From: an uncultured Clostridia bacterium
GTDB taxonomy: Bacteria > Bacillota > Clostridia > Christensenellales > Borkfalkiaceae
DNA: 64,000 nucleotides
Direction of reading: 5' to 3'
Assembly: GCA_947597925.1 (NCBI GenBank)
Contig: CANQFA010000001.1
Location: 1-64,000 of the forward strand
The translations under genes were made by a program, and so were the position numbers. The first letter of the stretch is position 1, and each line of letters begins with the position of its first letter. This document shows positions 1 to 4,781 of the stretch, one piece after another. The notes beneath the pieces were generated by a model, which was not told the DNA's origin, did no database searches, and saw only the letters and a list, made by a program, of their open reading frames with translations.

Positions 1-74
1 TACGTCCGTTCGACTTGCATGTGTTAAGCACGCCGCCAGCGTTCATCCTGAGCCAGAATCAAACTCTTAAGTTT
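1..74 (-). rRNA. rrs: 16S rRNA, 5' end only (partial)
   Basis: Read on the minus strand, the first bases give the universal 16S start (AGAGTTTGATTCTGGCTCAG, positions 67 down to 48), followed by the conserved GATGAACGCTGGCGGCGTGC and AACACATGCAAGTCGAACG blocks. Only about 74 nt are inside the window; the rest lies to the left. The gene runs leftward, away from the origin near 14.3 kb, as expected for an rRNA operon on the leading strand. Confidence 0.97.
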
Positions 75-889: not shown

Positions 890-1807
890 TCATGGGAGGA
901 GGCGCCCGATGCGGTTCATCATCTCCGTCTTGTGCTCGATGAGGGAGTGAGCATATCGCTGCAGGGTCACCGTGGGGTTTTGGTGGCCGAGGATCTCCGA
1001 GAGCGTCCTCACATCCATGCCCACCTCGAGCGCCCGCGTCGCAAAGGTGTGCCGAAGGGAATGAAAGCCGCGGTGCGGGATGTGGAGACGGCGGAGAAGA
1101 TTTTGAAAGGACCTCTGATAGGAGCGCACCTGCGCCCCGTACTCCGACTTGCCGATCACCACGAACTTTCCCTTCGTCGCGCGGCGAAGGTCGCGAAGGT
1201 GCCCTAAGAGCTGCTTGGGCAGGGGGATGACCCGCTCCGAGCTCTCCGTCTTCGTCGTGTCGAAGGTCTTGACATAGCTCCCCTCCCGCCATCCGTCATG
1301 ACAGGTCTTCGTGACGGAAAGGGTCCCCTTTCGAAAGTCGATGTCCTCCCATGTGAGGGCGAGGAGCTCCCCGATCCTCAGTCCCGTATAGAGGGCGAGG
1401 AGGATGCCGAAGAGGTGGGAATTTCTGCGGCGCTCCAGGATATACCGCTCGATCTTCTTCTGCTCCGCCGCGGTAAAGCAGGTCACCTTCTTCCCGCACC
1501 GCGCCCGCGGCCGCGCCACGGTATCGGCAAAATGCCGCGCCGCGACCCCGAGGGAGACCGCCTTCCGGAGGGATGCCTTGAGCACGGACAGCACGTTGTT
1601 TGCCGTGTTGGGCGAGAGTCCCCTCCCCGCGAGGGAGACCGAGAGCGCCTGCAGCCGCGCCGGGGTGAGCGCCTCCATATCCTCTTCGCCGAGCGCGGGC
1701 ATGAGATATTTCTCCGCCTGCTGACGATACTTGCGGTAGGTAAGCTCCTTGGTCGATGCCTTCACGTAGAGCTCCAGCCACTCGTTGAGCCATTGTTTGT
1801 ACTGCAT
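890..1807 (-). CDS. tyrosine recombinase / integrase
   Basis: A 305-residue tyrosine site-specific recombinase. The N-terminal SAM-like DNA-binding domain covers about residues 1-90 and the catalytic domain about 110-305. The catalytic set is visible: R144 (TGLRIGE), H249 and R252 (HSLRHTFATRA), H275 (ILGHQNP) and the nucleophile Y285 (LQRYAHS). The start at 1807 is chosen because GGAGTAA precedes it with proper spacing; the open frame extends upstream to 1867 without a ribosome site. There is no phage or conjugation gene nearby. Instead, about 350 bp upstream of its start lie two inverted 25-bp sites of recombinase type flanking a promoter (2155-2329) and then a pilin gene. I infer that it inverts that promoter; excision or integration of a small element is the alternative. 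Confidence 0.93.
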   Translation of the reverse strand: MQYKQWLNEWLELYVKASTKELTYRKYRQQAEKYLMPALGEEDMEALTPARLQALSVSLAGRGLSPNTANNVLSVLKASLRKAVSLGVAARHFADTVARPRARCGKKVTCFTAAEQKKIERYILERRRNSHLFGILLALYTGLRIGELLALTWEDIDFRKGTLSVTKTCHDGWREGSYVKTFDTTKTESSERVIPLPKQLLGHLRDLRRATKGKFVVIGKSEYGAQVRSYQRSFQNLLRRLHIPHRGFHSLRHTFATRALEVGMDVRTLSEILGHQNPTVTLQRYAHSLIEHKTEMMNRIGRLLP

Positions 1808-2154
1808 ACTTGTTACTCCTTTCGTTTGAATTCGGCGCCTTTCGCGCCCGCGTATATGATACTTCATTTGCGGGCACCATGGATAATATTCGCCTTACGA
1901 AAGGAAAAAGTATGAAGGGCCTACCGCGGGTGGTAGGGGGCCTTGCTGTCCCCTTGAGGGTGAGATTCCTCACGTTCGTTCGGAATGACGTACCTTGCAT
2001 TTCGACGACCGAAGGGAGGAGAAATCTCAAGCCCGAGATTCCTCACATTCGTTCGGAATGACGAAAAGAGGGGACGCCACCCCCCTCGAGGGCACAAAAA
2101 AACGGGCGGCGGAGGCCTCCCGAAAAACACACGATATGGGACATTTTCCCGAAG
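1808..2154. other. intergenic region with REP-like repeats upstream of the recombinase
   Basis: No gene is supported here. The stretch contains a GC-rich inverted repeat around 1917-1943 and one copy of a repeat (1998-2044) that recurs at 3257-3303, embedded in two GGAATGACG-ending units. It separates the recombinase from the invertible promoter. I see no convincing promoter for the recombinase here in the present orientation. Confidence 0.6.
1998..2044 (+). repeat. REP-like intergenic repeat, copy 1
   Basis: 47 bp, starting CATTTCGACGACCGAAGG, identical to 3257-3303 as far as I can read. It is followed by CATTCGTTCGGAATGACG, and a similar GGAATGACG unit precedes it. Short imperfect-palindromic GGAATGACG repeats of this kind are common between genes in many Bacillota. 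Confidence 0.75.
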
Positions 2155-2179
2155 TACATAGATTATGCTGTTCTATGTA
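2155..2179 (+). repeat. left inverted recombinase site of the invertible promoter
   Basis: 25 bp built like a tyrosine recombinase core site: arm TACATAGA (2155-2162), 9-bp spacer TTATGCTGT (2163-2171) and the perfectly complementary arm TCTATGTA (2172-2179). It is repeated in inverted orientation at 2305-2329 with 23 of 25 matches. Confidence 0.8.
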
Positions 2180-2304
2180 GCAAAATGTGCCATCTCGGCC
2201 AAAGAAAAAAGCGCCAAACGGCGCTATTTCGGGAAATTCTTTCAAGAAAATATTCTTTTTCGCTTGACAATGCATTGGGAAGCAGGTATAATAGAGACAA
2301 GAAG
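2180..2304 (+). mobile_element. putative invertible promoter segment (inverton)
   Basis: This 125-bp segment between two inverted 25-bp sites carries one consensus promoter (TTGACA 2264-2269, TATAAT 2287-2292) that points right, towards the pilin gene at 2408 (ON state). Inversion would move the promoter to about 2192-2220 pointing left, towards the recombinase gene, and silence the pilin. The layout of recombinase, invertible promoter and surface-structure gene is that of known phase-variation switches such as fim. That it inverts here is inference. Confidence 0.75.
2264..2292 (+). promoter_or_regulatory. pilin promoter inside the invertible segment
   Basis: Perfect -35 TTGACA (2264-2269) and perfect -10 TATAAT (2287-2292) with a 17-bp spacer. 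Transcription would start near 2299 and cross the right inverted site before reaching the pilin start at 2408. Confidence 0.88.
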
Positions 2305-2329
2305 TACATAGAACAGCATATTCCATGTA
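2305..2329 (-). repeat. right inverted recombinase site of the invertible promoter
   Basis: On the plus strand: arm TACATAGA (2305-2312), spacer ACAGCATAT (2313-2321), arm TCCATGTA (2322-2329). Its reverse complement matches 2155-2179 at 23 of 25 positions. The asymmetric spacers are in opposite orientation (8 of 9 match), which dictates inversion rather than deletion. Confidence 0.8.
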
Positions 2330-2407
2330 ATCTAATCGGGTGATATTGTCGCTCCGTCCCGGCGGCTTTAGAACAAAAAAATCATGATTTTTTTAAGGAG
2401 AAGAACA

Positions 2408-2833
2408 ATGCAAAAAAGAAGCAAAAAAGGCTTTACGCTCGCCGAACTTCTGATCGTCGTCGCGATCATCGCCGTCCTCGTCGCCATCGCAGTGCCGCTC
2501 TTCGTGGGCGCTTTGCAGAAGGCTGAGGATGCCACGAAGGATGCCAACATCCGTGCCGTCCGCGGTACCGCCGCTGTCTATCTGCTTGAGAACACCAAAG
2601 ATACCACCAAGCTTTGGCCGACAGATGTTGAGAGCTGGGACGTTGAAGCAACCGTTTCCAGCACCGGTGAAGTTGCGCTGAAAAAAGTCACGGCTATCGT
2701 TAAGGGCGGCTCTGCCTCTTACAAAACAGTTGGTGAGGCCGTAAAGACCGATGCGGGCGGATACACAATCACAGTCAACCTTACAAAGACCGTTATCACC
2801 GCAGAAGCTGGCAATCCTATTACTGGTGAATAA
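2408..2833 (+). CDS. type IV pilin-like protein (prepilin)
   Basis: A 141-residue prepilin. A short basic leader (MQKRSKKG) ends at the prepilin peptidase site G8/F9, followed by FTLAELLIVV with the conserved Glu at mature position 5 and a hydrophobic helix to about residue 33. The rest is a small pilin head with an alanine-rich helix and a threonine/valine-rich C-terminus. ATG 2408 is preferred over the in-frame ATG at 2384 because AAGGAG (2396-2401) sits 6 nt before it. No assembly ATPase, platform protein or peptidase is in the window, so the product must use machinery encoded elsewhere or be a pseudopilin. Its only visible promoter lies in the invertible segment, so expression is probably phase variable. 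Confidence 0.9.
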   Translation: MQKRSKKGFTLAELLIVVAIIAVLVAIAVPLFVGALQKAEDATKDANIRAVRGTAAVYLLENTKDTTKLWPTDVESWDVEATVSSTGEVALKKVTAIVKGGSASYKTVGEAVKTDAGGYTITVNLTKTVITAEAGNPITGE

Positions 2834-2848
2834 TCTCATCTAAAAATA

Positions 2849-2985
2849 ATGCGTCGTTGGGGACAAACGACGCATCCATTCGGAGCTACGCGGAGACCAA
2901 GGCAAGGGTCCGCTGATGCTTATTCGTATCCGACAGGGATGTAAGGATACGGAAAACAGCGAAACGATTTCGTTCCGCTGTTTTT
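2849..2985 (+). ncRNA. hairpin-rich 3' region of the pilin transcript, with terminator
   Basis: Four stem-loops follow the pilin stop: ATGCGTCGTT/AACGACGCAT (about 2850-2875), GCGGAGACC/GGGTCCGC (about 2889-2913), CGTATCC/GGATACG (about 2924-2951), and a terminator with arms AACAGCG/CGCTGTT plus inner pairing and a T-run (about 2953-2985). It does not match a riboswitch consensus that I know. It may be a structured 3' UTR, a small RNA or just tandem terminators. Confidence 0.45.
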
Positions 2986-3368
2986 TTGTGCTTTTACGAC
3001 GGGAGGGACCGACGAGGCGCTATAATCGTGTACCGACGAGGCGCTCTCTTATGTCACCCTGAGCTTGTCGAAGGGTCGCCTTAGCCTTACGTCCCCTTTT
3101 TCAGAAGACTGTGGCGATGTTTCGACTACGCTACTTCGTCGCTGCGCTCCTCGTGCCGACCTTAGAGCACAATAGAAGCCTCGGTCGGGGCAACATGACA
3201 CATTGGAACGCTTTTCGCGTCCCTCCTCACGTCATTTCGCCCCGCACCCTCCACGTCATTTCGACGACCGAAGGGAGGAGAAATCTCAAGCCCGAGATTC
3301 CTCGTCGCTGCGCTCCTCGGAATGACGTTTGAGGGGGCGCCAAGAATGACGTAAATCCACCCCCATTA
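2986..3368. other. repeat-rich intergenic region
   Basis: No gene is supported. The region holds a 14-bp direct repeat ACCGACGAGGCGCT (3008-3021 and 3032-3045), a CACCCTGAGCTTGTCGAAGGGT unit (about 3055-3077), two CGTCGCTGCGCTCCTCG units, and copy 2 of the 47-bp repeat. The short open frames have no protein character. Confidence 0.6.
3257..3303 (+). repeat. REP-like intergenic repeat, copy 2
   Basis: Same 47 bp as 1998-2044, here followed by GTCGCTGCGCTCCTCGGAATGACG. The two copies bracket the pilin and invertible-promoter island. Confidence 0.75.
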
Positions 3369-4781
3369 TCACATTTCGGGGGTGCGGAGGAAGTAATGGT
3401 AGATGTCGTCGGAGCCTGTGGGGCGCATGCCGGCGGCGAGCAGCATGCGGTGCGAGCGCTCGTTTTCACGGAAACACTTCGCCTCCATCCGCTCGATATT
3501 GAGCTTCGAAAAGGCGTACTCCGTGTACATCTTCACGGCCTCCCGCGCAATGCCCCTCCCCTCAAATTCGGGCAGGAGGCGCACCCCGACCTCCGCGCTC
3601 GCATCGTAGCCGAAGCGGTGCAGCACGGCCTCGCCGCAGAGCTTGCCCTCGAAAAAGATCCCGAGGGGCATCTCCATGCGGCAGCGGAAGCTCTCCTTCG
3701 CAATGCGCAAAAATCCCGCCGCCGAGGGCCTGCGGGCGTGATCTTCCCGCCAGTCGTACCCCCAGTAGCGGTTGCGCACGTCGTCCCCGGCGAGGCGTGC
3801 ATACTCCGCCATGTGCTCCCTCTCCACGGGGGCGAGGGTCAGGCGCTCCCCCTCGATGACGGGGAGCTTTCCCACAAGGTCTATGGCGCGCTTGGGGGTC
3901 ACATTGTACTTCTGCACGAGCTCCACGGGCAGGTACTGGAGCTTGGACTTGCGAAGGCCGAGATCGCCCGCGTCGTCCATGCGGTTGAGATAGCGGGCGT
4001 CCCCCGCGAAGGTGCGCGCAAACTGCTGTGCGAGGAAGGGATAGATGCCCTCGTAGCCGCGGAGAGCCTTTTCGATATGCACGACCACCATGTCGCCGCA
4101 GCGCTCCCCCGCCGAGAAGCCGACCACCTTTCCGCCCACGGTGAGGATGCCCGCAAAGATGGCGAGCTCTTTTAGGTGCGGCAGGATGGCGTAGACCTCG
4201 TCCATCTCCTCTTCGGCGAGATATCCGCCCTTTGCGCGCTGGATGCCCTCATATTCCTTCAGGAACTCACAGACCCCACCCATGTCCGAGGGAGAGGCCT
4301 CGGAAAAGCGCCAATCGGGGTATAATTTTTCAAATTTCCGCACATGATTGCGCTGCCCGGCGTGACTTTTCCCGGGGTATTCGCAAAAATCGGAGGCGAG
4401 GTAGAGATAGTCCCGCCAGCGGCGGTTGTTCGTGACGAGCGCCTCGGCGTATCGCGGTACCATGTCCGCGATGCGGTCGCGCGGAACGTTGGTAAAGTGC
4501 AGGCGGACCTCTCTGTCCCTGCACTCCCTCTCGAGGGCGGAGATCGCGGCGAGCTCCTCTTCCCTGTCGTGCGTCAGGGAGATGGGAAAGTGATAGAAGC
4601 ACTTGCCCGCGTAGTATTCGCGCAGGACGAGGCAGTTTTCGAAAAAGGCATAGTCGGGCTTCAGGGCGTCATTCCACATGAAGAGAAAGCCGCGGGAAAA
4701 GTCCCCCATGTGCAGTTTTTGTGCCGCAAGATAGGGCGCGAGGGCGCCCTGTTCCAATTTGTCAACTCGCTGAAATTCCAT
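3369..4781 (-). CDS. DUF2156 - GNAT acetyltransferase fusion
   Basis: A 470-residue two-domain protein. Residues 1 to about 300 resemble DUF2156 (itself an acyltransferase-like fold related to the synthetase domain of aminoacyl-phosphatidylglycerol enzymes), with the family's pattern near the end of that domain (MDDAGDLGLRKSKLQYLP). Residues about 310-470 are a GNAT N-acetyltransferase of RimJ/RimL type, with an LPEFEGRGIAREAV acetyl-CoA loop and FRENERSHRMLLAAGM near the end. Start 4781 fits the family N-terminus, yet a strong terminator (4789-4809) ends only 3 nt before this ATG and there is no ribosome site, so expression needs readthrough from parB or an internal start. The substrate is unknown. 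Confidence 0.82.
   Translation of the reverse strand: MEFQRVDKLEQGALAPYLAAQKLHMGDFSRGFLFMWNDALKPDYAFFENCLVLREYYAGKCFYHFPISLTHDREEELAAISALERECRDREVRLHFTNVPRDRIADMVPRYAEALVTNNRRWRDYLYLASDFCEYPGKSHAGQRNHVRKFEKLYPDWRFSEASPSDMGGVCEFLKEYEGIQRAKGGYLAEEEMDEVYAILPHLKELAIFAGILTVGGKVVGFSAGERCGDMVVVHIEKALRGYEGIYPFLAQQFARTFAGDARYLNRMDDAGDLGLRKSKLQYLPVELVQKYNVTPKRAIDLVGKLPVIEGERLTLAPVEREHMAEYARLAGDDVRNRYWGYDWREDHARRPSAAGFLRIAKESFRCRMEMPLGIFFEGKLCGEAVLHRFGYDASAEVGVRLLPEFEGRGIAREAVKMYTEYAFSKLNIERMEAKCFRENERSHRMLLAAGMRPTGSDDIYHYFLRTPEM

Follow-up and report, generated by a model that had tools for sequence, protein, structure and literature searches.

The window, a stretch of 64,000 nucleotides at the start of contig C1 of an uncultured gut Clostridia genome (G000; 1.62 Mb in 28 contigs, completeness 94.9%), very probably carries a site-specific promoter-inversion switch of a type IV pilin gene, which is one of a dispersed set. 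This conclusion is built on what can be read from the DNA itself, namely the sites, the promoter, hairpins resembling terminators and the copies scattered over the genome (Table 1), together with inversions that took place in relatives. In the proposed mechanism, a small tyrosine recombinase of the Int type would recognise 25-nt sites whose common arms are TACATAGA/TCTATGTA, and strand exchange in the core would invert the 125-nt promoter segment. In the present orientation the promoter would transcribe the pilin gene (ON), while in the flipped orientation transcription would run outwards and end within about 100 nt at the terminator beside the distal site (OFF). Acting in trans, this enzyme would invert such segments in front of several pilins, whose N-terminal part is constant and whose C-terminal part varies. 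These alternative pilins could be assembled by one and the same type IV pilus machine, so that mixed pilus types would arise in the population.

The wider reading, to which we give an even chance, is that this genus chooses among dispersed type IV pilins by promoter inversion with one pilus machine. Here a domesticated Int-type recombinase with a resident switch would act in trans on many loci, cores private to some loci would keep these from recombining with others, and in part of the cassettes the site would double as a terminator tightening the OFF state. Across the wider clade this unit of recombinase and switch would precede leucine-rich-repeat, InlB-repeat and ABC-transporter genes.

Table 1. 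Features of the window and of the sister switches in the same genome
Feature	Position	Strand	Basis or remark
5' end of 16S rRNA gene	1-74	-	contig edge; recombinase gene <1 kb away
Tyrosine recombinase gene, 305 aa from ATG 1807	890-1807	-	frame open to 1867
Putative intrinsic terminator outside distal site	2096-2122	-	fold -12 kcal/mol, then TTTTTTT; z -1.3, only slightly better than shuffles
Distal recombination site TACATAGATTATGCTGTTCTATGTA	2155-2179	+	inverted-repeat search
Invertible segment, 125 nt	2180-2304		inverted-repeat search; homologue in opposite orientation in G012
Terminator-like hairpin within segment, facing away from promoter	2210-2225	-	terminator scan
Sigma-70-type promoter TTGACA-17-TATAAT, ON orientation	2264-2292	+	12/12 consensus match
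Proximal recombination site, minus strand TACATGGAATATGCTGTTCTATGTA	2305-2329	-	inverted-repeat search
A/T palindrome AAAAAATCATGATTTTTT directly 5' of Shine-Dalgarno	2375-2394	+	weak fold, no better than shuffles
Shine-Dalgarno AAGGAG	2395-2400	+	read from sequence
Type IV pilin gene, 141 aa	2408-2833	+	N_methyl PF07963 E 1.6e-8; TIGR02532
Terminator 3' of pilin gene	2953-2990	+	inverted repeat; fold -18.7 kcal/mol, z -3.2
Switch C1:129047/129186, core TACGTTA, before pilin	C1:129047-129210		OFF
Switch C3:147002/147141, core TACGTTA, before pilin	C3:147002-147165		OFF
Switch C15:12391/12530, core TACGTTA, before pilin	C15:12391-12554		OFF
Switch C1:273954/274102 (L005, L014), core TAAGCTA, before 1161-aa pilin-like protein	C1:273954-274126		OFF

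Site pair, promoter and putative terminators of the window

An inverted-repeat search returned the same two 25-nt sites, at the same coordinates, that an earlier note on this DNA had described; 23 of 25 positions are complementary (92%) and 125 nt lie between them. Dinucleotide shuffling of window 1500-3500, repeated 60 times, gave 19/25 as the best 25-nt inverted repeat, and the real pair is therefore beyond chance. The supposed build of each site, arms around a 9-nt spacer, was also borne out, the 8-bp arms being complementary at 8/8 positions in the left site and at 7/8 in the right. The two sites mismatch at positions 6 and 9, with a core identity of 8/9.

A single consensus promoter aimed at the pilin gene had been claimed between the sites, and it is there as a perfect match, ending 12 nt upstream of the proximal site. 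Thus the window has the layout of an inverton, i.e. a promoter enclosed by inverted repeats and directed at a gene. A promoter scan at a looser threshold found 1 against a shuffle mean of 1.0, a count that is uninformative by itself; the weight of the promoter call comes from the perfect match and from similar promoters in the sister cassettes.

On the other hand, the idea that the promoter in the OFF state reads into the recombinase gene and feeds back on switching was not supported, because the putative terminator outside the distal site should stop this transcript. The window hairpin, which is separate from the recombination site, was picked up by an outward-terminator scan of cassettes and missed by a stricter terminator scan. 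Among 27 cassettes, which include several near-copies, an outward terminator-like hairpin lies between the distal site and 75 nt outside it in 23 (the misses being L063, L070, L072 and L074) and on the pilin side in one, against an expectation of 1.1 of 27 from mononucleotide shuffles. The OFF transcript should thus end before the recombinase gene, and feedback as the main design was rejected on this ground; leaky read-through into the gene may occur. The recombination site itself forms the stem, with a T run after it, in the three TACGTTA cassettes, in four of G036 and in one of G035; two of these were folded and gave -23.6 and -17.5 kcal/mol.

The hairpin within the segment would face the pilin gene in the OFF state and could block read-through. 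A similar one is present in L079-L081, and hairpins of this sense occur in 6/27 cassettes including the window, those of the opposite sense in 2/27. The A/T palindrome before the Shine-Dalgarno sequence recurs, slightly shorter and at the same place, in L002-L004, the other three pilin cassettes of this genome. Window positions 1962-2063 and 3240-3333 are occupied by an interspersed repeat of intergenic DNA (CATTTCGACGACCGAAGGGAGGAGAAATCTCAAGCCCGAGATTCCTC...), which is also found in L002-L004; it recurs around pilin cassettes and between recombinase and switch.

Past inversions in relatives and the neighbouring recombinase

Both orientations of such segments occur at homologous loci, the flipped examples being paralogs or other species. 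From genome G036 ten stretches were taken and seven compared, namely L063, which is of a sister type, and six cassettes that share a type. The interior of L068 is inverted against L064, L065, L066, L067, L070 and L063; flipped in silico at the site centres, it becomes colinear with L064-L067 and L070 (95-98% over 207-391 nt) and with L063 (89% over 367 nt). In G060, 166 nt are inverted between L095 and L096 with 97% identity. The third case is Pumilibacter muris CLA-AA-M08 (L169) against a metagenome-assembled genome (L167), where 192 nt are inverted (93% identity, three gaps) and the adjoining flanks are 99.6% identical over 238 nt on one side and 99.8% over 544 nt on the other; further out the identity is 92-95% over most of the remainder and 84% in the last stretch. 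This switch precedes a leucine-rich-repeat protein, not a pilin. In these three comparisons the half-sites were exchanged as a reciprocal crossover predicts, and those of G060 narrow the crossover down to the interval from position 6 to position 17 of the 25-nt site.

The exchanged half-sites also bear on a reading without any switch, in which the repeats would form a MITE-like element or two palindromes bound by a regulator. Near-identical cassettes at several places (99%, 95%) and the near-palindromic nature of each single site would suit it. Neither origin agrees with half-sites exchanged in three comparisons, with locus-specific cores matched within most pairs or with the linkage to a recombinase described below, and we rejected it, on the exchanged half-sites and the pair-specific cores, as highly improbable.

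The opposite orientation was also sought in related genomes, as the earlier note had proposed. The nearest relative of the window pilin (G012 C3:41796, 70% identity) follows a segment that aligns to the window segment with a score of 84 when flipped and 24 when unflipped, against at most 32 in 50 shuffles. The same orientation test against 18 cassettes was clear for the closer ones, with the promoter itself adding to the scores; neither orientation was clearly preferred for several of the more distant ones (L062, L063, L065, L082, L091 and L204).

The gene on the other side of the switch is a tyrosine recombinase gene as had been stated, with profile matches to Phage_integrase (PF00589, E 4.3e-27) and PF14659 (E 4.8e-8). 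ATG 1807 is most likely its start since aligned relatives begin there with a similar M-x-Y motif. Residues R149, K191, H254, R257, H280 and Y290 (310-aa numbering from 1822), which we take to be the catalytic R-K-H-R-H-Y set of a tyrosine recombinase, are invariant in 24/24 aligned sequences. Among solved structures its nearest relatives are chains named Int, one of them being 6emy, presumably the Tn1549 integrase. The retained residues weigh against a formerly active switch that is now locked ON in this species, which is also opposed by like or larger site differences in cassettes that did flip (22/25 in G036, 21/25 in G060). Such a lock could be suspected from the mismatches between the window sites, the atypical side of the recombinase and the one orientation known at the locus; we hold it to be unlikely.

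Recombinase and sites are found together across the genus. A relative of the recombinase at E 1e-20 is present in 36/71 genus genomes, and 61 of the genus genomes were covered by both the site scan and the recombinase scan. Relatives with at least 54% identity occur in 20/22 site-positive vs 4/39 site-negative genomes (Fisher 3e-10, kinship uncorrected; the threshold was chosen after seeing the data and some matches cover part of the protein only). For any relative at E 1e-20 the counts are 20/22 vs 13/39 (1e-5, kinship uncorrected). Four genus genomes have the recombinase (at least 54%) without sites, and two have weak single sites without recombinase; G013 carries a relative of 54% identity and no sites. 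Moreover, at the best 80 named of at least 579 confirmed candidate recombinase loci, a site pair lies within 700 bp in 36, and the nearby pairs are all on the 3' side of the recombinase gene (38/38) at a median distance of 44 bp. One pair lay elsewhere in 608 kb, and the reversed-pattern control gave three. A pair was undetected at 44 of these best 80 loci, including 15 of the first 38; re-inspection of 17 recombinase loci gave one clear site at some and none at others. The window differs from all 38 nearby pairs in having its switch on the 5' side, and the repeats flanking this region may have rearranged the order of recombinase and switch.

This unusual side raises the question of whether a real switch is flipped by another enzyme, with the neighbour as a bystander. 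The genome has four Phage_integrase matches, that is, the window recombinase and three others on C11, C8 and C15, and RecV of Clostridioides difficile is needed for some switches but not all (PMC5903667). Against such an arrangement stand the nearby pairs at 36 of the 80 best loci and the co-occurrence across the genus; the C11 match (359 aa), the only one compared, is merely 23% identical to the window recombinase over 181 aa. We consider it improbable that another recombinase of the genome does the flipping, and infer that the window segment itself inverts and that the neighbouring enzyme takes part. With common arms at five loci and one close recombinase in the genome, a master-recombinase system of the RecV or Mpi type may be present, in which a single enzyme would act in trans. 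The flipped relatives with exchanged half-sites, the G012 orientation and the linkage of recombinase and sites all favour the central claim of the earlier note, that the recombinase would flip the promoter and thereby turn the pilin gene ON and OFF.

Probable sister switches and the pilin repertoire

With up to three mismatches the site pattern matched at five loci of the genome, and a reversed control at none; a second site pattern added partner sites missing from the first search. By promoter direction the four sister switches read OFF, their promoters being directed away from the gene, and the switch of the window reads ON. Compared with the C3 copy of the TACGTTA cassettes, the C15 copy is 99% and the C1 copy 95% identical. 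Near the C1:273954 switch there are further prepilin-type matches at C1:269k. For a possible rule of one ON cassette per genome, 71 distinct pairs (identical copies dropped) were sorted into 6 ON, 17 OFF and 48 stateless, i.e. with no pilin-type target within 350 bp or with a weak promoter. When the dropped copies beside pilins are added (L015, L016, L081 and L087, all OFF), 6 of 27 are ON; an assembly displays a single orientation per locus, and one of the ON pairs, L082, is poor (19/25). In L076 (G035 C6) two tandem pilin genes stand behind a single switch.

The family-wide dyad is longer than the 8-bp arms of the window sites, being about TACATAGAwTA-nnn-TAwTCTATGTA. Among 79 pairs picked on arms alone, with cores ignored, core identity was 8-9 of 9 in 54 and at most 7 in 25 (at most 4 in 21 of these), and averaged 5.1 between loci; the pairs with low core identity are probably mispairings. 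With cores mostly matched within the pair and enclosed by the arms, and with the G060 crossover falling in the interval 6-17, the sites look like those of a tyrosine recombinase. Such cores, matched within and different between loci, would limit exchange to partner sites. Cores are common to most of the compared G036 loci and to the three TACGTTA loci of the own genome, so that exchange between loci is possible there.

The gene at 2408 had been called type IV pilin-like, in agreement with its profile matches and its GFTLxE prepilin signal. The predicted structure (mean pLDDT 87) combines a long helix at the N-terminus with four strands, and the sequence profile matches solved type IV pilins. 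A Foldseek search of this model against the PDB gave no match at E 0.001 or better, its rows being mostly antibody and T-cell-receptor domains; we took this null result for a helix-dominated pilin as uninformative.

The pilin is not alone, contrary to what had been supposed: it is one of several in the genome with a constant N-terminus and a variable C-terminus, three more of which lie behind a like switch. PF07963 gave 12 prepilin-type matches, 11 of them above the family cut-off. Two of them, at the end of C9 and the beginning of C3, probably belong to one gene, because these contig ends share about 77 nt with the gene start; no recombination site turned up at these ends with up to three arm mismatches. 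Another pilin, at the C10 end, is truncated by the contig edge before its upstream region. For 22 pilins of the own and related genomes, pairwise identity averages 75% over the first 52 residues and 22% over the remainder. At the C3 start the pilin is followed on the same strand by a frame with two PF00482 matches and by two PF00437 ATPases, which we take for PilC, PilT and PilB. These machine genes and the multiple pilins suggest that the genome pairs a single type IV pilus machine with several alternative pilins.

Contigs of the G000 assembly end at, or not far from, pilin genes and switch sites (C10 end, C9 end and C3 start; L059-L061), and like contig-end breaks are seen in G029, G035 and G036. 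The true number of cassettes may for this reason be higher.

Relation to known systems and distribution

There is precedent for each element taken singly: for invertible promoters, for master recombinases and for phase variation of pilins. The E. coli fim switch shares with the window an invertible promoter, a tyrosine recombinase and a pilus subunit as the target. It uses two tyrosine recombinases at one locus and serves a chaperone-usher fimbria, whereas the window target has the prepilin N_methyl motif and does not belong to the chaperone-usher type. The fim segment is 296 bp long and carries only a promoter (PMC5903667). The present system is also similar to that of Moraxella in that DNA inversion varies a type IV pilin. 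Marrs reportedly described in 1988 that the Moraxella inversion involves the pilin genes themselves, with the DEDD-type enzyme Piv. In contrast, a promoter segment and a tyrosine recombinase are involved here. Pilin variation by DNA inversion in Moraxella is referred to in two sources (PMC11868660, PMC5903667). Neisseria likewise has pilin variants with a constant N-terminus and a variable C-terminus, unlike the present case without promoter inversion. These variants arise by RecA-mediated change of the pilin gene. Pilin antigenic variation of Neisseria is mentioned in one of the two sources just named (PMC11868660).

As for scattered switches, the account of C. difficile names one tyrosine recombinase, RecV, needed for several of them; the switches named there serve flagella, CwpV and signalling, and inverted repeats are common to only two of seven switches, the others being unrelated (PMC5903667). 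Ours is alike in occurring in Clostridia with one tyrosine recombinase and several scattered switches, the enzymes being likened by description, and differs in that arms are common, cores are locus-specific and most targets in the genome are pilins. In Bacteroides fragilis the master enzyme Mpi, a serine recombinase, inverts at least 13 scattered regions including seven polysaccharide loci (PMC5903667); dispersed promoters are common to both systems, and the enzyme here is a tyrosine recombinase. In the hCom2 study, Clostridia invertons of group 139 are statistically linked to neighbouring tyrosine recombinases of invertase group 35, and the words 'pilin' and 'pilus' are absent from its main text (PMC11892184). 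Our Clostridia inverton beside a tyrosine recombinase is likened to this group by description. A C. difficile paper of 2022 contains both 'phase variation' and 'type IV pili' (PMC9286219). Promoter inversion before a type IV pilin was not found among the matches listed in a search of titles and abstract starts of open-licence PMC papers, which supports its absence weakly. Thus the combination of dispersed, inverting promoters in front of alternative type IV pilins, with sites that double as terminators, may be new.

Many bacteria use type IV pili for adhesion, motility and the uptake of DNA. If the window pilin is produced and exposed on the surface, as we suppose, a gut commensal with a switchable set of pilins would hedge its bets against antibodies of the host and phages specific to a pilus, the presumable selecting forces, by a route different from the pilin-gene recombination of Neisseria. 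Since flipped paralogs exist within single genomes, switching should be testable from existing metagenomes, and with P. muris CLA-AA-M08 there is a named strain that carries a switch of this type.

Allowing one mismatch, the site pattern is present in 22/61 genus genomes and 1/40 others of the order (reversed control 0), with single weak matches in two of the 22 and in the sole non-genus genome; it is absent from 39/61 genus genomes at this tolerance. The strict full pattern occurs in 9/151 family genomes, from 4/18 genera. Relatives of the window pilin were found in 16/71 genus genomes, and in 11/22 site-positive vs 3/39 site-negative ones. Because only half of the site-positive genomes have such a relative, many switches must serve other genes. 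In the wider clade, the switch beside recombinase relatives precedes other genes: two of five picked proteins have BspA-type leucine-rich repeats, and the other three are an ABC-transporter ATPase, a protein with InlB-type repeats and a Sel1-repeat protein. The Sel1-repeat gene, a candidate target in L140, starts nearly 700 nt away from its switch.
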